A DNA stretch of 64,000 nucleotides from Armatimonadota bacterium (GTDB lineage Bacteria; Armatimonadota; Fimbriimonadia; Fimbriimonadales; Fimbriimonadaceae): NCBI GenBank assembly GCA_016223145.1, contig JACRPN010000015.1, forward strand, positions 1-64,000, written 5' to 3'. The notes under the pieces are model-generated. The model worked only from the letters and a program-made list of their open reading frames with translations. It had not been told where the DNA came from and did no database searches. Positions 2,864-41,789 of this stretch are shown here, in pieces; positions within the stretch are counted from its first letter, which is position 1; every line of letters starts with the position of its first letter. A program made the position numbers and the translations under genes.

Positions 2864-5311
2864 ATGACTCGAACCACCTCAGGTACCCTCTCGGGCGTGT
2901 TCCGCGCAGCCAAACTGGCATTACCCGCACTGGCATCCTTGTTCGCTCTGCTGCTGCCGGGCCAAGTCGCAGCCCAGGCGCGGTCGGGCAGCTACACACC
3001 CGCCGGCGCGGCGCCGGTCTCTTGGAGCATCAACCCAAACCACGCCCTGATCTGGGACGGCAAGCCCTACCTTCCCTGTGGCGTCCGGATTCCCGGCTCT
3101 GTCGAGGCCGTGGCTCGGGCCAAGGCCGCCGGGGTCGCCGACGTAATCGTGGAGCTTCCCGCAAGCGGAATGGGCTGGCAGCCGGTTCTCGACAAGCTCG
3201 AAGCCGAAGGCATGCGGTACCTGATCGCGATCAACTCGCTGGCCGCACCTGCCACCGGAATCGCCGTCGAGCCACAGGCCTACCGCATCACAGGCATCAC
3301 CAAGAAGACTCATCTCGAAAGGTCCATCCCAGGGGCAACGAGCGCACTCGTGCTCTTTGTGACCCGGGTCGACGGCACGATCCGGCAGACCAAACGGGTC
3401 CAAATCGAGAACGGCAAGCTTTCCCTTGACGTGGACCCCATCAGCAGCCTGGAACACGTGGTGCTGGTCTATCCCGAAATGGCCAGCCTGGCGCAGCTCG
3501 ACTGTTGGGCGGGCCTCGACGCGCACCGCGACACCCTTTTGCTCACGCTCAAACGCCACAAGCTGGGGCCCGGACTGCGCGGCATTCTCAACCCCGTCGG
3601 CGCATCGCCAAGACTGCGCACGCCGCAGAGCTTCGTCCCCACCGACCCGGTCTTCCGCAACGAGTTCCAGAGCTATTTGGCAAGCCGCTATTCCGGCGCG
3701 CTCGAAACGCTGCAGCGAACCTGGGGCCTAAAGGCCGCGAACCTGAATTCGTTCGAGCAAGCAGCCCGACTGGTGCCCCTGTGGGCAGGCACACGAGGGG
3801 TCCCCATGGTCTTCGATCCTTCGACCGGGATGACCTACCAGGTGGACATGCCGACCTCCAAGATCTGGTCCGACATCGAGACCGTGATCACCCAAGCCGA
3901 GGCGCGGCGGTTCCGGCGGCTGGCGGGAAGCCTCAAGCAGGTTTGCGATGTCCCGATCGTACAAGAGTGGATGGGGTGGAATGCGCCCTATGAGAACGGC
4001 ACGGCGGCCCTCGACGGCCTTGCTGCGGCGACGTCTGGCACGACGCCCTCCGAAGTTTCGAATTCTGCGGCCCGCTGCGCCAGCTCCGTGTTCCGCTGGA
4101 AGGACTCGGGATGGCTCATCGCCGGATCAATCGATCTTGGCTTGGGCGAGGGCCTGGACGCCAAGCTGAACCCGGTGCTCGAAGACTTGACGGCCATGGG
4201 CTACCGGGGATGGTTTGTCAAGGCGGACGATGCGAAGCTGCTGATGGCAGTTGGTCAGGAGGCCCCGAAGCGGGGTGCGGACGTCACGGCGGCCAACTGG
4301 ACCGTTCAGCCGGTTTTCTTCCCGGAGAGCGCGCTGAACCCCGCGAACACGATGGCCTTGCCGGGTTTCAAGTGGTGGCTGCCGAGCCCGGACGACGGAA
4401 ACCGAGTGGAATTGGGCGAACGGATCTCCTGCTACCGGATCGGGCAGGGTGGGGCTTCGACGTTTGTGCTCTGGTCAAAGGCCCAGCCGATGCGCGTGAA
4501 GCTGCTTTTCACCGATCCCAAGAAGCCCCTCTTCTCAAGCCTCGATGGCTCCGACCCGAAGCCCAAACTGGTCAAGGGCGGGGTGGAGGTAGACCTCTCG
4601 ACGCTGCCTCTGATCATCACCAACACCGAGGAGATCCCGATCCCGGAGACTTGCGTCAAGGAGGTCAGTTGGCAGTTCGACCAGCTCCTGAAGGAGGCCG
4701 AAGGGTTACGCATCGACACAAACGACATGCGCTTCCTCTACATCACATCGCTCGATGGGCTGGAACGCAGCCCGGGGGGGAACTTCGTTCAGATGCGTCA
4801 GATCGTGGACAAGCTGAGCCAGAGGCTGGCGCCCTTCGTGTGGCTGGAGGCCGAGAACGTCGGTGAGACCAATTTCAGCGAAATCCTGAAAGCTCCCGGG
4901 GTCAGCAACGGTTCGGTGCTGGGTTTGCGCACCGCGCTTTCGGCGGGTTCGAGCGGTTTCGACGCGGAGTACCGGTTCCTGCCGAGGTCGGAGGCTGAGA
5001 CGGAGGTCTGGATTGCCGCACGGATTCCAGCGGAGGCGCGTGGCGCCGTGCAGATTCGGGTCGCAGGCCAGACCTTGCGGATCGAGGAAGGTCCCCTGAG
5101 CCTCTATGGTCCGGGCTTTGGCTGGTACCGAGTGGGCTCCACGAGGCTGGCCAGGGGCGAATCCAAGCTCATCGTGCACATCGACGGGGGCGACGGTGTC
5201 GAGTTCGCTATCGATGCGATCGTACTGGCGCCCGGCCACTTCACACCGAACGGCATCAAAGCACCCACGTCGTACATCTACACCGGTTCGAATGAGAAAG
5301 GAAAGGGTTGA
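2864..5311 (+). CDS. Secreted glycosidase-like protein (TIM barrel plus carbohydrate-binding-like tail)
   Basis: An 815-residue exported protein. The signal peptide has a hydrophobic core at about residues 18-32 and a likely cut after AQA (about 39). The following text (HALIWDGKPYLPCG, then alternating barrel-like segments) and the motif around NEFQSYLASRY...LQRTWGL resemble the active-site barrel of GH42/GH5-like glycosidases, where a stretch reading YxSLexLNxaWG is common. I could not identify the catalytic acids. From about residue 658 (WLEAEN) to 800 (FAIDAIVL) the sequence looks like a beta-sandwich carbohydrate-binding module. It is probably a cell-surface or periplasmic polysaccharide-acting protein. 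Substrate and catalytic competence are not known. Confidence 0.7.
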   Translation: MTRTTSGTLSGVFRAAKLALPALASLFALLLPGQVAAQARSGSYTPAGAAPVSWSINPNHALIWDGKPYLPCGVRIPGSVEAVARAKAAGVADVIVELPASGMGWQPVLDKLEAEGMRYLIAINSLAAPATGIAVEPQAYRITGITKKTHLERSIPGATSALVLFVTRVDGTIRQTKRVQIENGKLSLDVDPISSLEHVVLVYPEMASLAQLDCWAGLDAHRDTLLLTLKRHKLGPGLRGILNPVGASPRLRTPQSFVPTDPVFRNEFQSYLASRYSGALETLQRTWGLKAANLNSFEQAARLVPLWAGTRGVPMVFDPSTGMTYQVDMPTSKIWSDIETVITQAEARRFRRLAGSLKQVCDVPIVQEWMGWNAPYENGTAALDGLAAATSGTTPSEVSNSAARCASSVFRWKDSGWLIAGSIDLGLGEGLDAKLNPVLEDLTAMGYRGWFVKADDAKLLMAVGQEAPKRGADVTAANWTVQPVFFPESALNPANTMALPGFKWWLPSPDDGNRVELGERISCYRIGQGGASTFVLWSKAQPMRVKLLFTDPKKPLFSSLDGSDPKPKLVKGGVEVDLSTLPLIITNTEEIPIPETCVKEVSWQFDQLLKEAEGLRIDTNDMRFLYITSLDGLERSPGGNFVQMRQIVDKLSQRLAPFVWLEAENVGETNFSEILKAPGVSNGSVLGLRTALSAGSSGFDAEYRFLPRSEAETEVWIAARIPAEARGAVQIRVAGQTLRIEEGPLSLYGPGFGWYRVGSTRLARGESKLIVHIDGGDGVEFAIDAIVLAPGHFTPNGIKAPTSYIYTGSNEKGKG

Positions 5312-17058: not shown

Positions 17059-17568
17059 ATGAAGTGTCCGTACTGCGGTTTCGACGATCAAAAGGTTCTG
17101 GACTCTCGTCCGGCCCGCGACGGCGAAGCGATTCGAAGAAGGCGTGAATGTCTGAAGTGCGCCCGAAGATTCACGACGTTCGAGGCGCCGGAAAGGCCGC
17201 GTCTTTTCGTCATCAAGCGCGACGGCACCTACGAGGATTTTCAGCGCGAGAAGGTCCTGAACAGCATGATCATCGCCTGCCGCAAACGGCCCGTCACCAT
17301 GGACCGCCTGCGCGCCGCCAGCGAGTGGATCGAGCGCGACCTCTTCTCCGAGTTCGAGGAGGAGGTCGAGACCAAGGTCATCGGCGAGCGCGTTATGGAG
17401 CACCTGCGTTTCATCGACCAGGTGGCCTACGTACGGTTCGCGAGCGTGTACCGAGAGTTTCAGTCGATTGAGGAGTTTCGGGAGCTTGTTGAAAGCGTGG
17501 GGATCGAGGTCCGAGGTCCGAGGTCCGAGGTCCGAGGAGCGGAAGCTGAGGTGCCAAACGGTGGATGA
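17059..17568 (+). CDS. nrdR: Transcriptional repressor NrdR
   Basis: ATP/dATP-sensing repressor of ribonucleotide reductase genes. The N-terminal zinc ribbon has CPYC (residues 3-6) and CLKC (31-34) with RRRRECLKCARRFTTFE between and after. The ATP-cone follows (LFVIKRDGTYEDFQREKVLNSM to FIDQVAYVRFASVYREF). The conserved part ends near residue 146. The rest ([16 protein letters not shown]) is a tail encoded by a GAGGTCC heptamer array (17506-17537), so the native C-terminus has been extended. Its target, nrdJ, lies just downstream but is separated from it by a four-helix-bundle gene. Confidence 0.95.
   Translation: MKCPYCGFDDQKVLDSRPARDGEAIRRRRECLKCARRFTTFEAPERPRLFVIKRDGTYEDFQREKVLNSMIIACRKRPVTMDRLRAASEWIERDLFSEFEEEVETKVIGERVMEHLRFIDQVAYVRFASVYREFQSIEEFRELVESVGIEVRGPRSEVRGAEAEVPNGG
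17506..17537. repeat. Left GAGGTCC heptamer array bracketing the four-helix gene
   Basis: Four exact GAGGTCC units plus GAGG lie in the 3' end of nrdR. They are the reverse complement of the array at 18035-18072, on the far side of the four-helix-bundle gene. Confidence 0.9.
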
Positions 17569-17593: not shown

Positions 17594-18082
17594 ATGGAGG
17601 AATTGGACTTCTTCGTTAGGCTCGAAGCCATATTGGACGAGATGTGGGATCAAGTCGTGACTTGGGACTGGTTCGCCAAACGTGTCGTGGGAGTTCAGAT
17701 GATGAGCGCGGCCGACAGCATCGCAGCAAATCTGGTGGAAGGTGACGGGCGATTCGGCGAAGCAGACGCGGTCAGGTTCTTTCGCATCGCCAGAGCGTCG
17801 CTTCAGGAAGCAGTTCGATGGATCAAGCGCGCTCACCGGCGAAAGCTTATTGAGATCTGCACCCGGGACGCATGGGTTGACCAGTTGAGCCAAACCTCGA
17901 GGGTCATCAGCAAGCTGATCAGCTACAGGCAGGAATTCACATCGGGAAACAGAGTCAGGGAGGACCGAATGCGCTATGGGGATATCGAAGTCGATCCGGA
18001 CTTCGAGCCTTCTGGATCCAATCCAAACGTCGGCCCTCAGACCTCAGACCTCGGACCTCGGACCTCGGACCTGAAATGTTGA
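17594..18082 (+). CDS. Four-helix bundle protein (S23 / Avd-like)
   Basis: A small helical protein of the family found in 23S rRNA intervening sequences and related to Avd, the nucleic-acid-binding accessory protein of diversity-generating retroelements. The pattern is [23 protein letters not shown] followed by [22 protein letters not shown], equivalent to Q-x-RRA-x-SI-x-N-x-EG-x-GR and IA-x-SL-x-E. The ATG at 17594 is chosen because the first helix ([13 protein letters not shown]) begins there; the open frame runs back into nrdR. The last residues ([12 protein letters not shown]) come from a heptamer array. Inverted arrays flank it, and it interrupts the nrdR-nrdJ pair on the same strand. 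Confidence 0.8.
18035..18072. repeat. Right CCTCRGA heptamer array bracketing the four-helix gene
   Basis: Two CCTCAGA and three CCTCGGA units plus CCT form the 3' end of the four-helix gene. The array is the reverse complement of the left array (17506-17537), giving a terminal-inverted-repeat arrangement around about 530 bp. Confidence 0.9.
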
Positions 18083-21100: not shown

Positions 21101-22061
21101 AACACCTGAGCACCTGAACACCCAGGACCCGGTCTACCAAGCCGCCCAAAAGCTCGTCTACCGCTATATCGCCAAGCGGCGGGCCATGCCCGCGCGGCGC
21201 AGGGGCTACACCCAGAAGGCGCGCGTCGGAGGCCACAAGGTCTACCTGCGCACCGGCGAATTCCAGGATGGCTCGCTTGGCGAGATCTTTATCGATATGC
21301 ACCGCGAGGGCGCCGCGTTCCGCTCCCTGATGAACTGCTTCGCCATCGCGATCTCGCTGGGCCTGCAATACGGCGTGCCGCTCGAGGAGTTCGTCGAGGC
21401 GTTCGTGTTCACGCGCTTCGAGCCGAACGGCATGGTCCAGCTCCACGACAACATCAAGATGTCGACCTCGGTCATCGACTACATCTTCCGCGAGCTGGCG
21501 CTTTCGTACCTCGGCCGCACCGACCTGGTGCAGGTGAAACCCGAGGACATCCGGCACGATACGCTTGGCCGCCCTGAGCAGCTTCCGGACTATGAGGAAG
21601 AAGAGGATGCGGGCGAGATCGCCACGCCGGTCATCCCGGGCCTGGCCTGGGAGGATCACGACAGCAACGGCTATGGCAAGACCCGGGAACAGGTCGTCGC
21701 CGGCCCGAACACGCCTCCGGGAGCGGAGACGGTCTTGGGTCCGAGGCCCGAGGTCCGAGGCCCGGAGGGAGCAGGTCAGAGGTCTGAGGTCCGAGGCCCG
21801 GGGTCCGGAGAGGTCGCAGGTCGCGGGCCGCAAGCCGCAGGCATGGCGGTTGCGGCTCCGGATTCGTCAATCGTCAATCGTCCATCGTCCATTACCTCGG
21901 ACCTCAGACCTCAGACCTCGGACCTCTCAGAGAAGATCCGCGAAGCCCGCTTGAAGGGCTACGAGGGCGACCCCTGCACCGAGTGCGGCAGCTTCACCCT
22001 GGTAAGGAACGGCTTCTGCCTCAAGTGCAACACGTGCGGGGCAACGAGCGGGTGTAGTTAG
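18111..22061 (+). CDS. nrdJ: Vitamin B12-dependent ribonucleotide reductase (class II)
   Basis: Adenosylcobalamin-dependent enzyme that makes deoxyribonucleotides. GGAGG lies 6 bp before the ATG at 18111. Core motifs are [61 protein letters not shown] around the active-site loop, [22 protein letters not shown], and a C-terminal zinc-ribbon-like tail (CTECG...[13 protein letters not shown]). The 1316 residues include four low-complexity inserts at about residues 95-136, 361-378, 982-1007 and 1209-1275. All four are encoded by short-word repeat DNA and fall between conserved blocks. Expected to be repressed by the nearby NrdR. Confidence 0.95.
18395..18515. repeat. In-frame repeat insertion 1 in nrdJ
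   Basis: Heptamer words of the ATCCGAA/ATCCGCA type are broken in the middle by a unique stretch. They are translated as NPKSGANP...[11 protein letters not shown]: 21 bp makes one 7-residue repeat in every frame. Confidence 0.85.
19192..19240. repeat. In-frame repeat insertion 2 in nrdJ
   Basis: CAAAATC, CAAAATC, CGAGATC and CAAAATC units in 7-bp phase encode [11 protein letters not shown]. The peptide resembles insertion 1 (NPKS-x-I-x-N), so the same word class was inserted twice in one gene. Confidence 0.8.
21054..21130. repeat. In-frame repeat insertion 3 in nrdJ
   Basis: The first 35 bp match the transketolase insert (plus-strand 916-950, opposite orientation) at 29 of 35 positions and are read in the same frame, giving [11 protein letters not shown]. 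The rest is CACCTGA/ACACCTG words. Confidence 0.75.
21735..21940. repeat. In-frame repeat insertion 4 in nrdJ, with inverted heptamer arms
   Basis: The left arm has GAGGTCC/GAGGCCC words (about 21737-21800). The middle has a GTCAATC array (about 21868-21892). The right arm has CCTCGGA/CCTCAGA words (about 21896-21930). The arms are the same words, in the same inverted arrangement, as those around the four-helix gene about 3.7 kb upstream, but with no gene between them. Confidence 0.85.
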
Positions 22062-28857: not shown

Positions 28858-29763
28858 CTACTTCTTCGGAAAGAACATGAATTGCCCCTCTCCCAGGGTC
28901 TTCCAGACCGGGATCTGGCGCATTTTCATGAGTTCTGCGACGTCGCGGCGGATGTTCGGCAGAAGGTCGCTCACCAGATAGGGCCTTCCGCCTGCCGCTT
29001 CCTTCTTGCAGTGCTTCAGCATCGTCTGCGTCAACGCCCCGCCGCCGATCTTGGGCACCTCGTAGGAGCTTTCGAAGCTCATGCTGGAGAGCAGAATCAC
29101 CGTCCCAGGCGCAGCCAGAAACTTCTTGAGCGCCTCTTCCGGCCAGGTGGAGACCTTGATGATCCCGCCTCCGGCATGGCAGCAGTCGAAGACGATCAGC
29201 TTGTGCTTCGGCGGCGACTTCTGTACGGCCTCGATCAGCCCCTCAAGCGGCACCTTTTCGATGGTGACCTGCGGCTCGCCCGAGACCCCGTCCCTATCCA
29301 CCGAGGGATAAATGAACGAAGCCTCGCTGCCGGACGGAAAAAGACCCTCCGAGGAGCCTGTCGTCAGCACGCCATGCCCGCCTACATAAAACACGAGACA
29401 CGTCTCGGCGGGTAGCGAATAGAGCCCCGCGATCGCCTTGAAAAGCGACGACTTCGAGACGTCCTTTCCGAGGAGCATCTGGATGTCGCCTGCGGGATAG
29501 CCGCTTGAGAGCAGGAACTCCCGTATCGCCTTGGCATCGCTCTCTGCGAAGTTCAGGTTGTTGAGCGATGGAGGCTCGTCGCGATTGGCGGTGATCACTT
29601 CGAGCGAGGCCCCACTTCCCTTCGTGTAGTTGTCTACGCCGATCAGGACGGCGTGCGCCCGCTTGTAGCCCGCAGCGGCGATCTCCTGTGAGACCTCGAC
29701 GCCCCGCGCCTGGCCCACGTCTTGGGCCAGAAGGTTAAGGGCCAGCACCGCAGCGACCAGCAT
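28858..29763 (-). CDS. Secreted caspase-like (C14, metacaspase-type) protein
   Basis: A 301-residue cysteine peptidase of the caspase fold. The N-terminus (MLVAAVLALNLLAQ) is a short export signal. The p20 core is seen in AHAVLIGVDNYTKG and NLNFAESDAKAIREFLLSSGYP. CLVFYVGGHG carries the catalytic His at residue 130, and LIVFDCCHAGG carries the catalytic Cys at about 195. VILLSSMSFESSYE and GGGALTQTMLKHC follow, as in family members that recognise basic substrates. There is no separate effector or sensor domain. Bacterial metacaspases of this shape are common in multicellular or developmentally complex phyla; the substrate is unknown. Confidence 0.87.
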   Translation of the reverse strand: MLVAAVLALNLLAQDVGQARGVEVSQEIAAAGYKRAHAVLIGVDNYTKGSGASLEVITANRDEPPSLNNLNFAESDAKAIREFLLSSGYPAGDIQMLLGKDVSKSSLFKAIAGLYSLPAETCLVFYVGGHGVLTTGSSEGLFPSGSEASFIYPSVDRDGVSGEPQVTIEKVPLEGLIEAVQKSPPKHKLIVFDCCHAGGGIIKVSTWPEEALKKFLAAPGTVILLSSMSFESSYEVPKIGGGALTQTMLKHCKKEAAGGRPYLVSDLLPNIRRDVAELMKMRQIPVWKTLGEGQFMFFPKK

Positions 29764-33626: not shown

Positions 33627-33959
33627 TTCCAATGACACCACCCTAAATGGTGGAGCCACCCAAAGATCATATCCTGGGTACCCCCACCCGAATGGGTGGC
33701 CCGCCGGGGGCGAAGTAGCAGCCACGGAGTGCCACAGCGGCGAATGACCTGTAGGTCGAGATCCGGGCCGGGGGACAGGAATACCGGAAGCACGGGTAGG
33801 GCTGGTAGAGCTTTTCGGGACGCCTGCAAGGAACGCGAGAAACCAGGCAGGGACCCTCCCCGAGCGCCTGACCCGTCGTCCCTGGCCGGGGGCGCGCTTC
33901 AACGATTCAGGAAGTCTCTCGGGCCACTTCCCGCGAGAGAACTCGAAAACAAACCCAGT
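33627..33959. other. Intergenic region with a two-hairpin element
   Basis: I see no convincing gene. Positions 33631-33714 hold a two-hairpin element that recurs at 40940-41026. The remainder (33715-33959) shows only a Gly/Arg-rich pseudo-frame. Confidence 0.6.
33631..33714. repeat. Two-hairpin element, copy A
   Basis: Hairpin CCACC..GGTGG is followed by AGCCACCCAAAGA, a 15-bp variable spacer, hairpin CCACCC-GAAT-GGGTGG and GGGGCGAAG. Copy B (40940-41026) keeps the order and the conserved AGCCACCCAAWGA but changes the stem bases in pairs. Confidence 0.7.
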
Positions 33960-36353
33960 TCATGCCCGATCAAAATCGATTTCGAATTGCCCTTCCGGAG
34001 TCACCAAAGGTGCGTCAAGCACATGTATCCCTCCCTTTTGGAGCTCAAGCACCATGCCCTTGAACTCTTGCAGAACCTGCTTGACCAGGGGCACTATCTT
34101 CGGCGTAATCGCCGCAGCTATCTCCTTCGCAGCACTTCTCTCTTGAGCCTCAGAGACCCTGAGGTGCATCACGAAAAACGCTAGCAGATGCAAACCGAGC
34201 AGCAGACGGTCATCCTTCGGAGAAAACGCAAGCACCTCGCTCTTGACGATGTCGATGTGACCTGACTCGATAGCTCCGGCCAATCTCAGGAACTCAGCGT
34301 GTTCCGCGGACTCCTCCGGCGGCACACCCAACTCGACGTTGAGTATCTGATCCGACGAAACCGAATCACGGGCTTCGAGAAAGTGGAATATAAACGCAGT
34401 AAGCGGATAGGAATCGCCGCTCTCTTGAGCCCTGAGGAAGCCCGCAAAGCAGTTTGCCAACTTAAGAATGACCTCTCCCAGCACGGCACGCCTAACGTCC
34501 ACATTGGTCTTGTAGCAGGCCTGCAACGCTAGCCCGATCGTCACTAGTGCCCGATACGCTGCGATCCCCGCACCAACATCAACATTCGCGCACAATACGG
34601 CCAGCTCATCGCCCCGCGTCGATCTCGCCCCATATGCGAACACGATTGCGTTTCGCCACCACTCGTCTGAAACAACGCTCTCAATGTCCTGTACCGATTC
34701 TATCGACGCTCCCGCAAAGTACTCTTGGAATAGATGATGACGGAAGGCGACCCGCTCCTCGCTTTCGACGAGGAGACCTGACCTCAGTATTTCATCCGCC
34801 ACCGCGTCTGCCTTCTCGCCTCTACCCCAGCTTGTAAGAATCCGCTTGACATCCGATCTGAACTCAGAAACCGACTTTTCCGTATGGCGCCTATTATGCC
34901 AGCCGAGAGCGATTTGCTCAAGCACGCCGTGCTTCTCCTCCCATTCGTACTGGACACTTATTCCCTTCCGGTCGTCCCATTGACCAAGCATTAGCGCGGC
35001 GAACTTCCGGAATATCGCGCTAATGTTTGGCGGAATGTCCTTAGTGTAGAAGTTCGGCGTCGCGGCAAACACGGTAACAAGCAACGGGTTTAGCTTCATA
35101 CCATGAACGTCCTGCAGCTTTCGAAGCACTTCGGTTACGGCTGCGGGCTGAATATCCTTGCCGGCAACCGCCCTGTTCACAATACTGCTTGCCTGCTTAA
35201 TGCTAAAGTCAGATATCTCGTAGATAGGTATCCGCCTCTCAGTTGCGTAGTTTCTCACTGTGAGCCGGGGTCTCGAAGAGACTACTACCTTGCAGGAGGG
35301 GTAGGAGTGTGCAAATGACTCGATCAGATTGAGGACATGGGCGTACCCCAAGCTTGACCCAGCTTCATCAACAGCGTCAATGAACACTTGGACACGGCCT
35401 GATGTGAAATCGTTTTCCTCCAGCCCGGAATCAGGTTCCATCAGTGCTTGAGCTATCTTAGCCTCTGCAGCTTCGCGCAACGAGTCCGCCTGAATAAGGT
35501 CGACTGCACGGAGCAGAACAGGGATAATACACTCGTCCTGTCCTGTCGCCGAAAGAGAGCGGTTACAAGATAGAAGACAAAGGCGACGCAGCAACGTCGT
35601 CTTTCCGGTTCCACCGTCTCCAACGACAAAAGCGACCGGCTTGGCCATCTCAAGGAGTCGCTCGTCAGCGATCTCCTCTATCAGGGGTTCTGACTTCACG
35701 ACGCCTTGCTTGACCACCATGTGCGTGGTGAGACGGAAAAGCTTCTGTCCCACGTATGCCTCTTCGGCGAATGGAGCAAGTGCCGGCTCATGCCCGTCTC
35801 CTGGGTACAGAAGCACTGCATCGGTCATTGAGAGGAGCTTGGCTCGAAGCTCTTCTACATATTTTCGGTTCAGCCTACTAATGCTTATCCAGAATGTTTT
35901 GTAATGCTGATCTATCGCATCGATCAACTCATCTGCGTCAAGTATCGTGACGTTCGACCCTGTTAGTTGCCTAGCGATCTCGGCGCGCGCCGACGTGTTC
36001 GCTGAGCCGCTCGTGCAAAGAAAGACATAGTCGGGCCTTACCTTGGTGTTGTTATGTAGGAGCACGACTTCCGTGTTCGACGCTGTCTTCAACTGCGTGA
36101 TCGCCTCGATGACATTCTGGCTGGCCTTCTGACTCATGTTCAGCTTGGTCGTCTTGGTCTGCACTACATACACGTGTCGCTTGCCGAACTCAACGTCCTT
36201 GAAGAGAATGCAATCCTTGCCCTCTTCGTCCACTCCACAGACGTCGCGGTAACACCGGAATCCCTGTGCTAGGAACAACTCCCTAACCACTCGGTCTCGG
36301 AATTCGTCTTCAGACAAGCTTGCTAGTTTTGCCCTCTTTTCTGCGTGTGTCAT
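33960..36353 (-). CDS. PD-(D/E)XK nuclease-NACHT (STAND) ATPase, probable defense protein
   Basis: About 797 residues. The N-terminal 170 residues read as a restriction-endonuclease-like domain: EFRDRVVRELFLAQGF, the acidic residue in DEEGKDCILF, then YVVQTKT as the QxK part of the D-(D/E)xK/QxK site. A NACHT NTPase follows, with Walker A GDGGTGKTTLLRRL (about residues 245-258) and Walker B VQVFIDAVDEAG (about 322-333), where DAVDEA is the typical NACHT form. VVVSSRPRL and FRHHLFQEYFAG mark the ARC/winged-helix part, and the last 300 residues are a helical sensor. The ATG at 36353 is preferred over an upstream TTG (36389). Known bacterial NACHT fusions of this shape abort phage infection. GC is lower than that of its neighbours. 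Confidence 0.88.
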   Translation of the reverse strand: MTHAEKRAKLASLSEDEFRDRVVRELFLAQGFRCYRDVCGVDEEGKDCILFKDVEFGKRHVYVVQTKTTKLNMSQKASQNVIEAITQLKTASNTEVVLLHNNTKVRPDYVFLCTSGSANTSARAEIARQLTGSNVTILDADELIDAIDQHYKTFWISISRLNRKYVEELRAKLLSMTDAVLLYPGDGHEPALAPFAEEAYVGQKLFRLTTHMVVKQGVVKSEPLIEEIADERLLEMAKPVAFVVGDGGTGKTTLLRRLCLLSCNRSLSATGQDECIIPVLLRAVDLIQADSLREAAEAKIAQALMEPDSGLEENDFTSGRVQVFIDAVDEAGSSLGYAHVLNLIESFAHSYPSCKVVVSSRPRLTVRNYATERRIPIYEISDFSIKQASSIVNRAVAGKDIQPAAVTEVLRKLQDVHGMKLNPLLVTVFAATPNFYTKDIPPNISAIFRKFAALMLGQWDDRKGISVQYEWEEKHGVLEQIALGWHNRRHTEKSVSEFRSDVKRILTSWGRGEKADAVADEILRSGLLVESEERVAFRHHLFQEYFAGASIESVQDIESVVSDEWWRNAIVFAYGARSTRGDELAVLCANVDVGAGIAAYRALVTIGLALQACYKTNVDVRRAVLGEVILKLANCFAGFLRAQESGDSYPLTAFIFHFLEARDSVSSDQILNVELGVPPEESAEHAEFLRLAGAIESGHIDIVKSEVLAFSPKDDRLLLGLHLLAFFVMHLRVSEAQERSAAKEIAAAITPKIVPLVKQVLQEFKGMVLELQKGGIHVLDAPLVTPEGQFEIDFDRA

Positions 36354-36600
36354 AGGATGGTAGCACCCCGGAAACACTATACACCCCAAGAAGGCGTTTC
36401 GTCCTGCGAACGGTGGTCACCCATTGCATCCCGGCGACCAAGGATGTCGGGAGGTCTTGCTGAGGGAGAGGAAGTGGCCCCGACAACCTAATCGATGACG
36501 TGCCCCCGACACGACGAATGGTTCTTGCCGTCTTGTCGGGGCTGATCGGAGCGGGCCGCAGGATGGGCAATCTTGCCAAAGGTAGACTCGCCTTCCCCCG

Positions 36601-38291: not shown

Positions 38292-38635
38292 GGGGTTTGG
38301 TCTCCGGGTGGGGTCGTTTAGAGTATGGATGGAAGGGGGAACGGCAGTGTTAGCACCTCCCTCGTCAAGCTTGTCAGCGATTGATCCTTCCGAGTCCCGA
38401 CGAGTCGGGAAGGGAGGGGTTGGGGACGGAGATCCGGCGCGCGGATAGGATAGTGTTCTTTGTGTGGCTCCAACCTCCGGTACCCCCCGAAGGGGGGCTC
38501 CTCGAAGGATATTTGGGACCACTTGGAGAAGGTCTATGCAGGCTCGAAGGACATCCGGGCGCATCCGGCCGATGGTAGGTCTGAACCCATTGACCGTATG
38601 GACCCGCACGCCGTCGGCTGTTGGGGAGGCGAACC
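38292..38635. other. Intergenic repeat region
   Basis: No gene. Hairpin-type words CCTTCCGAGTCCCGACGAGTCGGGAAGGGAGGGG (about 38385-38420) and CCCCCCGAAGGGGGG (about 38485-38500) resemble those at 8620-8663. A strong Shine-Dalgarno (GGGGAGG) at the right end serves the next gene. Confidence 0.55.
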
Positions 38636-39508
38636 ATGTGGGGGAAGGTCAAGAAGGCGTTCAAGGGGGGATGGAATGCGCTTAAGAAAGGCTGGGAAAA
38701 GCTTAAAGGCATGGGGAAAGCAATTTGGAGCGCGATAAAGACACTCTTCGGTTCGTTCATCATCTTTTTGGTCTGGCTCTTAACCCTACCATGCCGTATC
38801 TTCCAAGGGCGAAAGAAGCTTAACGATCGAGAACACGCACTCCTAAAGAACGTGTACCGCGACGGGCTAAATATCAACAAGATCAGGATCGTGCCAAAAC
38901 ATGCATGCCTGATCGAGGTGGCTGCGATTGCCTGGGAGTGGTCGAAGGAAGTCGGCAAGATGATCATCAGGCATATGTTCCGCCAGCCAGAAACTCCGAC
39001 AGGCGCTACAGAAAGCGAGACACCCGAGGGTACGGAGCTCAGGAGACCGAGCTTGCGTCCATTTACCATTGGCTATACGATTTACCTCGAGGGCGTCAAA
39101 ACATCGGAGAGTCCCGAAACGCTCGTGCACGAATCTGTGCATGTCTGGCAGTACGCGCACGTTGGGGCTGGGTACATCACGGACTCCCTCGTCGGACAGG
39201 CATTGCGAGGACAAGGCACGTATGATTGGCGAAGTGTAGTAGATGGTGGGCAGTCCACCTGGGCTGAACTCAGTGTCGAATCACAGGCGTCGCTGATAGA
39301 GGACACCTTTCTCAGGGGCGAGCTCATGTCTAACGGGGTCGTGGAGGAGTTCGGCAACGGGTGCTTCTTCAAGGCGGACTGGGTCAAGAAGTTTGGACGG
39401 CTGAGGTTACTTAAGTTGTCCGCAGACGATGAGGGCCCCTGGAACGACAACGACTACGACGATTACACGGAGTTGGCGCGGTCGGCCGTCGAGTTGCTTA
39501 GGGGATGA
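38636..39508 (+). CDS. Zincin-like (HESVH) protein with Lys-rich amphipathic N-terminus
   Basis: About 290 residues. The ATG at 38636 follows GGGGAGG at a 6-bp spacing. Residues 1-33 are a Lys/Trp/Gly-rich amphipathic segment (MWGKVKKAFKGGWNALKKGW...), then a hydrophobic stretch (TLFGSFIIFLVWLLTL) that could span a membrane. The middle is charged and variable. The zinc site is LVHESVHVWQY (His-Glu-x-x-His at about residues 165-169), then ITDSLVGQAL, a Tyr/Asp-rich span and SVESQASLIEDTF. This plan (HE-x-x-HVWQ...E-x-QA-x-I-x-D-x-F) is known from proteins labelled as Rhs/eCIS-associated DUF4157-like peptidases. GC is lower than average. It is possibly a toxin-like or processing peptidase. Confidence 0.65.
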   Translation: MWGKVKKAFKGGWNALKKGWEKLKGMGKAIWSAIKTLFGSFIIFLVWLLTLPCRIFQGRKKLNDREHALLKNVYRDGLNINKIRIVPKHACLIEVAAIAWEWSKEVGKMIIRHMFRQPETPTGATESETPEGTELRRPSLRPFTIGYTIYLEGVKTSESPETLVHESVHVWQYAHVGAGYITDSLVGQALRGQGTYDWRSVVDGGQSTWAELSVESQASLIEDTFLRGELMSNGVVEEFGNGCFFKADWVKKFGRLRLLKLSADDEGPWNDNDYDDYTELARSAVELLRG

Positions 39509-39543
39509 ACCGCAGGTGGCGCGCCGGGGCCACCTGCAGGGCT

Positions 39544-39640
39544 GCCGGCAAGGGGTCTCCCAAGCATCCCGGACAAAGGGCGTACGAGCCCTCGCCTCCT
39601 GTCCGGGACGCGTTCTTTAGGGAGTTGTCGGGGCCACCAG
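39544..39640. repeat. 97-bp direct repeat, left copy
   Basis: Matches 40832-40928 without gaps at 78 of 97 positions (hand count). Each copy contains an inverted pair (CCCGGACA/TGTCCGGG here). The pair brackets the RelA/SpoT gene exactly, between its upstream and downstream neighbours. Confidence 0.85.
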
Positions 39641-39653
39641 CCCCCCCCCCCCC
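39641..39653. repeat. Homopolymer of 13 cytosines
   Basis: C13 lies 39 bp before the probable RelA/SpoT start codon. Such tracts can change length by slippage and could affect the promoter or leader of this gene; the exact count may also be a sequencing or assembly uncertainty. Confidence 0.7.
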
Positions 39654-39692
39654 AGAACGGTGGCCAAACGATACTGTAGTACCATTGTGCTG

Positions 39693-40730
39693 ATGAAGCC
39701 AGCGAAGAAGCGTGAATGGACAAAGGTCAGAGTAGACAACGCTGGAGCAGCCCTGCTCAGAAGGCATTGCTCGCTAAGTGAGCTTGATCGGGCGTTCAGA
39801 ACAATCAACGAATGGAGGTCCTCACACGCCTTCCCACTGAACACCTTTCAAACGACGCTGCGTCGAAAGGCGAGGCAAGTCGACCCAAAGTGCCTTGTAG
39901 CTCAACGCCTGAAGCGCCTTTCATCTATTGACAGTAAGCTTCGAAGATTCAGTTGGCTGCAACTCTCGGAGATGCAGGACATTGCTGGTTGTAGGGCCGT
40001 TCTTCCTTCAGTGCACGACGTAGATGCTCTAGTAGGGCTCTATGGCGACAGCGATCTCAAACACGAGCTCATAGATAGCGACGACTACATCCGCTCTCCG
40101 AAAAAATCGGGTTACCGCGGAATCCACTTGATCTATAGCTACTACAGTGACAAGACAGAGAAATACAACGGCCTGAAGATTGAAATCCAGTTTCGTTCAC
40201 GTCTCCAGCATGCATGGGCCACGGCCGTTGAGACGGTCGACACCTTTACGCGGCAGGCCCTAAAGTCGAGTCAGGGCGAGCGGGATTGGCTACGATTCTT
40301 CCAATTGATGTCCTCAGAAATGGCGGTCCGAGAAGGCACGCCTACTGTGCCCGGAACTCCCAATGGGGCGGACGATCTTATAGAGGAGTTGAGACACCTG
40401 GCAAAGCAGCTCGACGTGGTCGGCAAACTCAGCGCTTTTGGCCACACACTGAGCAAGGCACAGCCCAACTTGCGGGGATCGCATTACTTTCTAATGGTCC
40501 TTGATTCGAGAGATCATAGGATCACGGTGCATGGCTACCGAAAACGGGATTTGGTCGCTGCGTCAACGAGGTATCTCGAGATCGAACGGCAGAATATTGA
40601 GGATCCAAACATGGACGCCGTCCTCGTTTCTGTGGACTCGCTCCAAGCGCTAAAGAGGGCCTACCCGAACTATTACCTTGACACGCGCGTGTTTCTTGTT
40701 GAGTTACAGCGGGCAATCGCGGAACCCTAG
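39693..40730 (+). CDS. RelA/SpoT-domain (p)ppGpp-synthetase-like protein
   Basis: About 345 residues from the ATG at 39693 (an upstream in-frame start exists at 39660). The nucleotidyltransferase core is clear: WLQLSEMQDIAGCRAVL, the SGYRGIHLIY G-loop, LKIEIQFRSRLQHAWATAVET. An N-terminal helical part (about residues 25-80) and a C-terminal 140-residue region of unknown type surround it, with no TGS, ACT or hydrolase HD domain. Relatives are small alarmone synthetases, including toxic (toxSAS) and phage-responsive forms. No antitoxin gene is adjacent, so the C-terminal region may serve. It is bracketed by 97-bp direct repeats and lower in GC than the host genes. Confidence 0.85.
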   Translation: MKPAKKREWTKVRVDNAGAALLRRHCSLSELDRAFRTINEWRSSHAFPLNTFQTTLRRKARQVDPKCLVAQRLKRLSSIDSKLRRFSWLQLSEMQDIAGCRAVLPSVHDVDALVGLYGDSDLKHELIDSDDYIRSPKKSGYRGIHLIYSYYSDKTEKYNGLKIEIQFRSRLQHAWATAVETVDTFTRQALKSSQGERDWLRFFQLMSSEMAVREGTPTVPGTPNGADDLIEELRHLAKQLDVVGKLSAFGHTLSKAQPNLRGSHYFLMVLDSRDHRITVHGYRKRDLVAASTRYLEIERQNIEDPNMDAVLVSVDSLQALKRAYPNYYLDTRVFLVELQRAIAEP

Positions 40731-40831
40731 TGCGAGTGTCGCCGACCCCGGCTATGAGCGGCAGGGGCGGCGGGCCGATGGCAGCGCCGTTTGTCGGGGT
40801 GGAGGGTATCGAGCCGCTGAACCCCGGACGG

Positions 40832-40928
40832 GCCGGCAAGGGGTCACTCGAGCACCCCGGACAAAAGGCGCACGGACTCTCGCCTCCTATCCGGGGCACG
40901 TTCTATGCGAGGCTGTCGGGGCCACCGG
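40832..40928. repeat. 97-bp direct repeat, right copy
   Basis: Same orientation as 39544-39640 at an offset of exactly 1288 bp, with no gap in the alignment. Inner inverted pair CCCCGGA/TCCGGGG. Confidence 0.85.
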
Positions 40929-40939
40929 CCCCACGCTCC

Positions 40940-41026
40940 CATCACACCACTGCAAGCAGTGGAGCCACCCAATGACTACAGCCGTTGGGGAGACCCACCC
41001 CACGGGTGGCTCGCCCGGGCGAAGAT
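40940..41026. repeat. Two-hairpin element, copy B
   Basis: Hairpin CCACTGC-AA-GCAGTGG, then AGCCACCCAATGA, a spacer, hairpin CCACCC-CAC-GGGTGG and CCGGGCGAAG. Against copy A the stem bases differ in pairs while linkers are kept, which points to selection for RNA or cruciform structure. Confidence 0.7.
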
Positions 41027-41117
41027 CAGATCATCGCAGACCATTGAGAAACATGCCCCGACCCCGGCTAGGGCGGCGAGTGGATAAGATCGTGGTCTTC
41101 AGTTTGCCCGCCGCGTT

Positions 41118-41789
41118 TCACACCACACTTTCCCTGCCAGGATTCACCACCAAGAAGTCCTCCATCGGTCTGCCGGACTCCACCATGCGATTCCAAAGGT
41201 CATGGATCCCATGGCTCACCTTGAACTCCAGCTCGGACTTCGTGATGGGTACGGCCATCATCAGGTTCACAGTGAACCCATCGCCACGGAACACGCGGGC
41301 TTCTTCAGGCAGAATCACAGGTTCTGCAAGCATGGCTCCATAGAACTGGGTCCCTGGGTATGGCAAGGGCTCGGGGTGACTGCTTGGGATGCTGATGCCA
41401 GGAACAAGAGGACGGTTCGCCTCAAACGGGAGCCGGCCGAATATCTTGAGGGCGCGAATTGGCCAGTAGTTGGATTCATCCTCCCACTCCTCGGTGTTTA
41501 GCGGCCAGTCTTGGGGCAATGCAATTCCTACCTCGGCGAAGCGCATGTCCTTCGAAGGCGCCTTGGGCATGGGCTTGGCAGACATCCCGCACGTGACCAA
41601 GAAGTGCCAGGGGCGTTTCTCAGGAGCAGTGTATCGAAACACATCCAGGTGGACGATCTCTGAGACCAATTCATGAAAAACATTGGCGTCTTCAGTCACG
41701 CCCAGTTGTTGCTTCCAATGCTCGTCGATCGCATTCATGTGCTTCGCATAGGCAACCCTGTGCCCAAAGAGCTTCTGAAGAAACCGCAT
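41118..41789 (-). CDS. Suppressor-of-fused (SuFu) domain protein
   Basis: A 223-residue SuFu-domain protein. The family plan is seen in VFHELVSEIVHLDVFRYTAP, WHFLVTCGMSAKPM, FAEVGIALPQDWPLN, NYWPIRALKIFGRLPFEAN, and near the end VNLMMAVPITKSELEFKVSHG. In bacteria such proteins are frequent immunity partners in contact-dependent or polymorphic toxin systems; others are stand-alone. It lies convergent with the RelA/SpoT gene, and a zincin-like gene is nearby, but no toxin with a recognised delivery domain is in the window. Confidence 0.88.
   Translation of the reverse strand: MRFLQKLFGHRVAYAKHMNAIDEHWKQQLGVTEDANVFHELVSEIVHLDVFRYTAPEKRPWHFLVTCGMSAKPMPKAPSKDMRFAEVGIALPQDWPLNTEEWEDESNYWPIRALKIFGRLPFEANRPLVPGISIPSSHPEPLPYPGTQFYGAMLAEPVILPEEARVFRGDGFTVNLMMAVPITKSELEFKVSHGIHDLWNRMVESGRPMEDFLVVNPGRESVV

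Follow-up and report, generated by a model that had tools for sequence, protein, structure and literature searches.

Does a RelA/SpoT gene that lies between two direct repeats belong to a mobile cassette whose ends the repeats mark, or did the gene and the repeats come together separately? We addressed this question for a locus in a 64,000-nucleotide stretch of contig JACRPN010000015.1 from an Armatimonadota bacterium; the whole of this stretch is referred to here as the window. The preliminary description of this DNA had reported two gapless 97-bp copies at an offset of 1288 bp, each with an internal stem, enclosing one gene of lower GC, and this anatomy was confirmed. Copy 1 (39544–39640) and copy 2 (40832–40928) agree at 78 of 97 positions without gaps over that start-to-start distance, and the match in fact runs on to 109 bp at 80% identity. 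Between them lies one long open reading frame, opening with GTG, with a GC content of 0.530 compared to 0.603 for the window (Table 1). The 47-nt stems at 39566–39612 and 40854–40900 beat all 200 shuffled sequences (z = −3.5 and −3.9, respectively), and the folding of the 138–149 nt stretches around them is unremarkable (z = −0.85 to −1.94). When the organism's own genome was searched with the 97-bp unit, copies 1 and 2 were the sole matches at E ≤ 0.001, copy 1 recovering copy 2 at E = 1.1e-19. Three elements of Table 1 had escaped the preliminary description: copy 3, the degraded partner of copy 2, and the second repeat family.

Table 1. Features of the locus and their positions in the window
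Feature	Position	Strand	Remarks
Second dispersed repeat family, member	33628–33706	+	9 own-genome matches at E ≤ 0.01, including itself
NACHT NTPase carrying an Mrr-type nuclease domain at its N-terminus; probably a second defence gene	33960–36389	−	Pfam NACHT 1.2e-8, Mrr_cat 8.2e-7
Copy 3, a diverged REP-like unit in the opposite orientation to copies 1 and 2	36498–36556	+	Upstream of the NACHT/Mrr gene; within-window blastn; congener-only model E = 0.09 (weak); R1 40.6 bits, in R1 training set
Repeat copy 1, 109 bp, REP-like unit	39544–39652		Palindrome core 39552–39613 on − strand; congener-only model E = 3.5e-5; R1 53.3 bits (in R1 training set)
Fused CapRel homologue: toxic small alarmone synthetase-type domain and pseudo-zinc-finger autoinhibitory domain	39660–40730	+	Likely start ATG 39693
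Degraded inverted partner unit of copy 2	40776–40802	+	Congener-only model E = 0.062 in 64 kb; E = 1.1e-4 over 111 bp beside copy 2
Repeat copy 2, 109 bp, REP-like unit	40832–40940		Unit 40840–40901 on − strand; congener-only model E = 0.0013; R1 52.4 bits (in R1 training set)
Second dispersed repeat family, member abutting copy 2	40937–41024	+	

The product of the enclosed gene matches the Pfam family RelA_SpoT at E = 3e-16. A housekeeping small alarmone synthetase of the RelQ or RelP type would carry this domain as well, since it is common to such enzymes (5dec and 2be3 match), but that identity is scarcely probable for our protein. Among solved structures, only CapRel-SJ46 covers the whole chain (7ztb and 9erv, the latter assigned to CapRel-SJ46 in the excerpt of PMC11578894; E = 4e-43, residues 19–349, 117 of 324 aligned residues identical, or 36%). 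The next structures are small alarmone synthetases that match from E = 1.5e-10 and in the catalytic domain only. The NCBIfam YjbM equivalog model is matched far below its cut-off (55.5 of 320 bits), the PADLOC candidate defence model PDC-S33 is matched at E = 9.5e-123, and both the YXXY motif and interface residues are kept.

The excerpt of PMC9712102 assigns residues of CapRel-SJ46 to the ATP site, the G-loop, the autoinhibitory YXXY motif with its interface, and capsid binding. In our alignment, R79, R116, Y155, Y352, and Y355 of SJ46 correspond to R83, R112, Y152, Y335, and Y338, respectively; A77 is matched by an identical residue, and the interface residues V338, L339, and A351 by V321, L322, and A334. 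The YXXY motif reads Y335-P-N-Y338 and lies in the C-terminal domain of the same chain. SJ46 A341 is S324 here, L307 is R287, and L280 is unaligned; because the sensor residues L280 and L307 are not kept, the phage trigger is not predictable. Across 44 homologues (38 on viral contigs and 6 in named genomes), R83, R112, and Y152 are present in all 44 and both YXXY tyrosines in 35, the nine misses including one partial match (L160) and one protein cut by a stop (L032). An AlphaFold model built with six sequences (mean pLDDT 79.4, pTM 0.78) has CapRel chains as its top three Foldseek matches (E = 4.5e-25 to 2e-24, with the fourth at 6.2e-8). Over the whole chain it deviates from CapRel by an rmsd of 9–10 Å, which may reflect a different domain arrangement. 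The parts of CapRel are thus present at the level of sequence, key residues, and predicted fold. Together with the PDC-S33 match, they support the earlier suggestion that this RelA/SpoT protein is of a toxic or phage-responsive type, and point to a fused CapRel homologue.

By analogy with CapRel-SJ46, as described in the excerpt of PMC9712102, from which we infer the substrate, the autoinhibition, and the phage trigger, the protein is most likely an autoinhibited tRNA pyrophosphokinase that is released by a phage protein. In an uninfected cell, the C-terminal pseudo-zinc-finger domain would cover the ATP site via Y335 and Y338 and keep the enzyme shut. During infection, binding of a phage protein to the variable C-terminal domain would open the synthetase, and the N-terminal toxSYNTH domain could then pyrophosphorylate tRNA and stop translation. 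The phage would fail, and the infected cell would be sacrificed.

Close chain-long homologues occur in 3 of 61 genomes (the own genome and two of 60 relatives, G019 and G023), and five more genomes contain weak part-chain matches at E ≤ 0.001, a threshold at which neither of the two congeners, G001 and G002, matches the protein. Beyond the 38 loci on viral contigs, the six named-genome loci belong to two Chloroflexi bins, a Spartobacteria bin (interrupted), a Dormiibacterota bin, a Sulfitobacter bin, and Natronohydrobacter thiooxidans. The Spartobacteria-bin homologue (L032, 4971–6044) is broken by an in-frame stop. When ten neighbours of homologues from other genomes were run against the PADLOC models, none matched at E ≤ 1e-5. 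The low GC and patchy distribution indicate that the capRel gene was probably acquired horizontally. Our locus adds a CapRel-type defence gene from this bacterial genus to a family found in bins and viral contigs.

The repeats have a different distribution. In a DNA search of the same 61 genomes, the stronger foreign matches lie in the two congeners (E = 1e-6 to 3e-3); G023 has a 30-bp match (E = 0.0014), and all other matches, extending to E = 1, are weak. The congener element is about 206 bp long, has inverted 44-bp ends with 82% identity, and folds as one long hairpin (two copies folded). A covariance model with 12 base pairs, R1, was built from 17 aligned units, of which three (copies 1–3) are from the window, and the R1 scores of these three are therefore not independent evidence. 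By our own reading of this alignment, 8 of the 17 units have GT(A/G)G as their palindrome head, 8 have GTGC, and 1 has GCGT. At E ≤ 0.1, R1 detected at least 3 units in the own genome, at least 24 in G001, and at least 29 in G002; these searches scored 136 or 150 of about 1,400–2,070 first-look candidates (150 of 2068 in one), and weak copies may be missed. With stricter filters and E ≤ 0.05, matches were obtained in 3 of 41 genomes of the family, a sample with G002 outside it: 3 in the own genome, 24 in G001, and 5 weak ones in G018.

To control for circularity, we built a profile HMM from six congener units only and searched it over the 64-kb window. Four matches at E < 1 were obtained: 39609–39554 (3.5e-5), 40899–40842 (1.3e-3), 40776–40802 on the opposite strand (0.062), and 36500–36549 (0.09). 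The first two fall in copies 1 and 2, and the two weak matches appear credible by virtue of their position beside or among the others. The last of them is copy 3, whose surroundings (near 36455–36559) also emerge from within-window blastn at E = 4e-5 and 5e-4; by DNA similarity genome-wide, copy 3 is not significant (E = 3). Because the match at 40776–40802 is inverted and lies beside copy 2, the segment 40776–40901 is best read as a decayed inverted pair like those of the congeners, with copy 2 as its right half. No partner unit for copies 1 and 3 was found by this HMM in the window.

Unit coordinates in the congeners show how the family is arranged where it is abundant. By our count, 10 of the 24 units in G001 fall into 5 inverted pairs, two form a same-strand pair, and 12 are singles. 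In G002, 12 of 29 units fall into 6 inverted pairs, two form a same-strand pair, and 15 lie outside these, two of the 15 beside a pair. Pair members are about 0.06–0.2 kb apart and every other neighbour distance in these two genomes exceeds 6 kb, which is why no pair of the units found there is spaced to frame a single gene. The preliminary description had named single copies at random positions, unrelated to gene cassettes, as the pattern that would speak against its reading, and the 24 and 29 congener units, scattered as singles or close pairs, largely show that pattern. The search for more copies that it recommended found them in the own genome, G001, and G002. Comparison of individual sites gave no clean empty site: at L043, the flanks exist in G001 with other DNA between them, and at L040, G002 carries the element with a further unit beside it. 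At an orthologous 206-bp element shared by the two congeners (L038 and L042), the DNA directly to its right differs in order, a rearrangement at the element's edge.

These findings bear on the proposal that the repeats bound a gene cassette, of the integron or another recombinase type, and act as attC-like or direct recombination sites. The repeat–gene–repeat layout invites it, as do the common orientation of copies 1 and 2, their internal hairpins, the roughly 7–40 bp between the end of the 109-bp repeat and the start codon, and a third copy upstream of another defence-type gene. A search of the own genome (97% complete), confined among recombinase families to the integron integrase model TIGR02249, gave no match over the cut-off. 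The two tyrosine recombinase loci that did match score best as XerC/XerD, both below the cut-offs of those models, and one of them clears the threshold of NF001399, a subfamily model for tyrosine recombinases. The attC core is GTTRRRY. The end motif of our repeats varies between copies (GTTGTCG in copies 1 and 3, GCTGTCG in copy 2) and does not fit that core.

Homologue loci argue in the same direction. Among the 44 homologues, 39 have at least 300 bp on both sides of the gene and five have flanks that are too short; in none of the 39 did direct repeats enclose the gene within 1 kb at E ≤ 1e-3, a test in which the window scores 7e-24. The G019 and G023 homologues (loci L052 and L053) fall outside this set, and self-comparison found no repeat around either gene. 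Looser direct repeats lie farther out at L031 (53 bp, at 3379 and 6538) and L035 (62 bp, at 1965 and 6103), where the gene is not framed within 1 kb. With no integrase over the cut-off, two recombinase loci that score best as Xer-like, congener units that frame no genes, and no bracketed homologue among the 39, the integron/attC cassette was rejected, and a cassette bounded by recombination sites, as first suggested, is highly improbable. Cassette-like anatomy, tempting as it is, can arise from dispersed palindromic repeats.

The repeats could also permit loss of the gene without any recombinase, through homologous recombination between two direct copies 1.3 kb apart that are 80% identical over 109 bp. 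The absence of a protein match in the two congeners at E ≤ 0.001 and the restriction of close chain-long homologues to 3 of 61 genomes would be in keeping with easy loss. RecA usually needs an identical run longer than 14 bp, and the longest run shared by copies 1 and 2 is 14 bp; ordinary homologous loss should therefore be inefficient. In addition, no relative was found with a single fused repeat at a matching locus, a 19.9-kb query giving short scattered matches in 4 of 6 relatives. Taken together, we consider this explanation very unlikely. Two further candidates were set aside. Phage or tRNA-type integration was rejected because a scan of the window found no tRNA or tmRNA. Plain intrinsic terminators found no support, as a scan of 39400–41100 returned one weak site, inside the gene, compared to 1.5 expected by chance.

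What the units resemble is a REP family. According to the excerpt of PMC8266576, REPs consist of a 20–50 nt palindrome after a tetranucleotide, most often GTAG, occur in inverted combinations, and are associated with TnpA-REP; the head is defined as GT(A/G)G before the palindrome in the excerpt of PMC2817692. We call the present family REP/REPIN-like because the palindrome and the doublets fit, the head fits in part, and the association with a transposase is putative. The own genome has 12 matches to Y1_Tnp (PF01797), 11 of which exceed the cut-off, each congener has 4, and 5 of 14 control genomes also match. A repeat unit lies near 2 of 20 Y1 loci, at about 0.4 kb (L071) and about 1.3 kb (L057, whose unit is in the R1 training set), a proximity that is suggestive only of a link to Y1. 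None of the 20 loci has a Y1 gene flanked by the repeat on both sides within the stretches examined. The units are homologous, form hairpins, pair in inverted orientation, and are dispersed in two congeners, and Y1 genes are present in the genomes; we infer that a Y1 (RAYT-type) transposase working on single strands probably dispersed the units.

An alternative to Y1-moved units would be MITEs of a DDE transposon. The length of the congener element and its inverted 44-bp ends lend themselves to this idea, as the REPINs of P. fluorescens SBW25 are shorter, with 71 bp between the conserved 16-mers of the GI doublet in the excerpt of PMC3116915. However, the two ends are each a hairpin in their own right, carrying a GGTG-type head, many units belong to no inverted or same-strand pair (12 of 24 in G001 and 15 of 29 in G002, where two of the 15 adjoin a pair), and Y1_Tnp genes are present, all of which make MITEs an unlikely identity. 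Overall, we consider it likely that the repeats are decayed copies of the genus's REP/REPIN-like palindromic family and mark no cassette boundaries, and that the gene between them is a separate, unrelated fused CapRel homologue.

Among the observations that count against the REP/REPIN-like reading is that all three units found in the own genome, which spans 3.87 Mb, fall within 4.4 kb of the window, unlike a dispersed family. This same concentration makes an independent scatter of the three copies unlikely, and local duplication or joint acquisition offers a simple account of the clustering. Copies 1 and 3 each lie just upstream of a defence-type gene (capRel and the NACHT/Mrr gene, respectively), in the same orientation relative to it. 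The NACHT/Mrr gene is low in GC like capRel (about 0.53–0.55), and its product, with weak, partial PADLOC and NCBIfam matches only, resembles a STAND-type anti-phage protein. Because a GNAT gene and a URO-D gene separate the two, the region is mixed rather than a compact defence island. Comparison of the surrounding 19.9 kb with six relatives, scoring up to 40 candidates in each genome, revealed no shared gene order, and four of the six gave just short scattered matches. We consider it very improbable that this genome has kept the REP-derived unit solely beside defence genes, where it could serve as a site of landing or duplication through which Y1-transposase-processed DNA gathers or sheds them. 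Were the clustering of the three repeats beside these two genes functional, REP-type repeats would be tied to how defence islands grow. Among the literature matches listed, we found none that treats REPINs and CapRel together.

Several other features of the window were recorded. The two members of the second repeat family are direct repeats of each other, one at either end of the 7.3-kb NACHT-to-CapRel region; elsewhere in the genome, on contig C13, a Y1 transposase gene has a member of this family at a distance of about 1 kb. AGGTCCG-type units form short tandem arrays, with both orientations represented, at 17493–17557, 18027–18073, and 21730–21926, and a 45-bp repeat occurs three times (213–257, 350–394, and 2704–2748), the second and third copies being 89% and 87% identical to the first. 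A 295 aa protein encoded at 38621–39508 (+) is low in GC, has no Pfam, PADLOC, or NCBIfam match, and contains an HESVH (HExxH-type) motif. Adjoining copy 2 is a gene for a SUFU-family protein (41118–41789, −; Pfam 6e-31); proteins of this family are often immunity proteins of polymorphic toxins. A caspase-domain (Peptidase_C14) protein is encoded at 28858–29763 (−; 2.6e-12).

Compared to known systems, the locus shares with integron attC cassettes a repeat–gene–repeat layout with hairpins, but differs in having no integrase over the cut-off, no conserved core, no array in view, and units that are dispersed in congeners. With REPIN/REP families and their RAYT (TnpA-REP) it has more in common: imperfect palindromes, a GTGG-like head in some units, inverted doublets that form one hairpin, and Y1_Tnp genes in the same genomes. 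The doublet here is nevertheless about 206 bp long, the head varies, three decayed units were found in the own genome, and the cognate RAYT is only a candidate. For the gene, the counterpart is CapRel-SJ46, a prophage-encoded fused toxSAS toxin–antitoxin, whereas our gene sits on a 116-kb contig with no phage-type Pfam family among 19 window open reading frames, and the SJ46 sensor residues L280 and L307 have changed. Chain-long homology, the adenine-site arginines, the G-loop tyrosine, the YXXY motif, and the best fold match are all shared with CapRel-SJ46.
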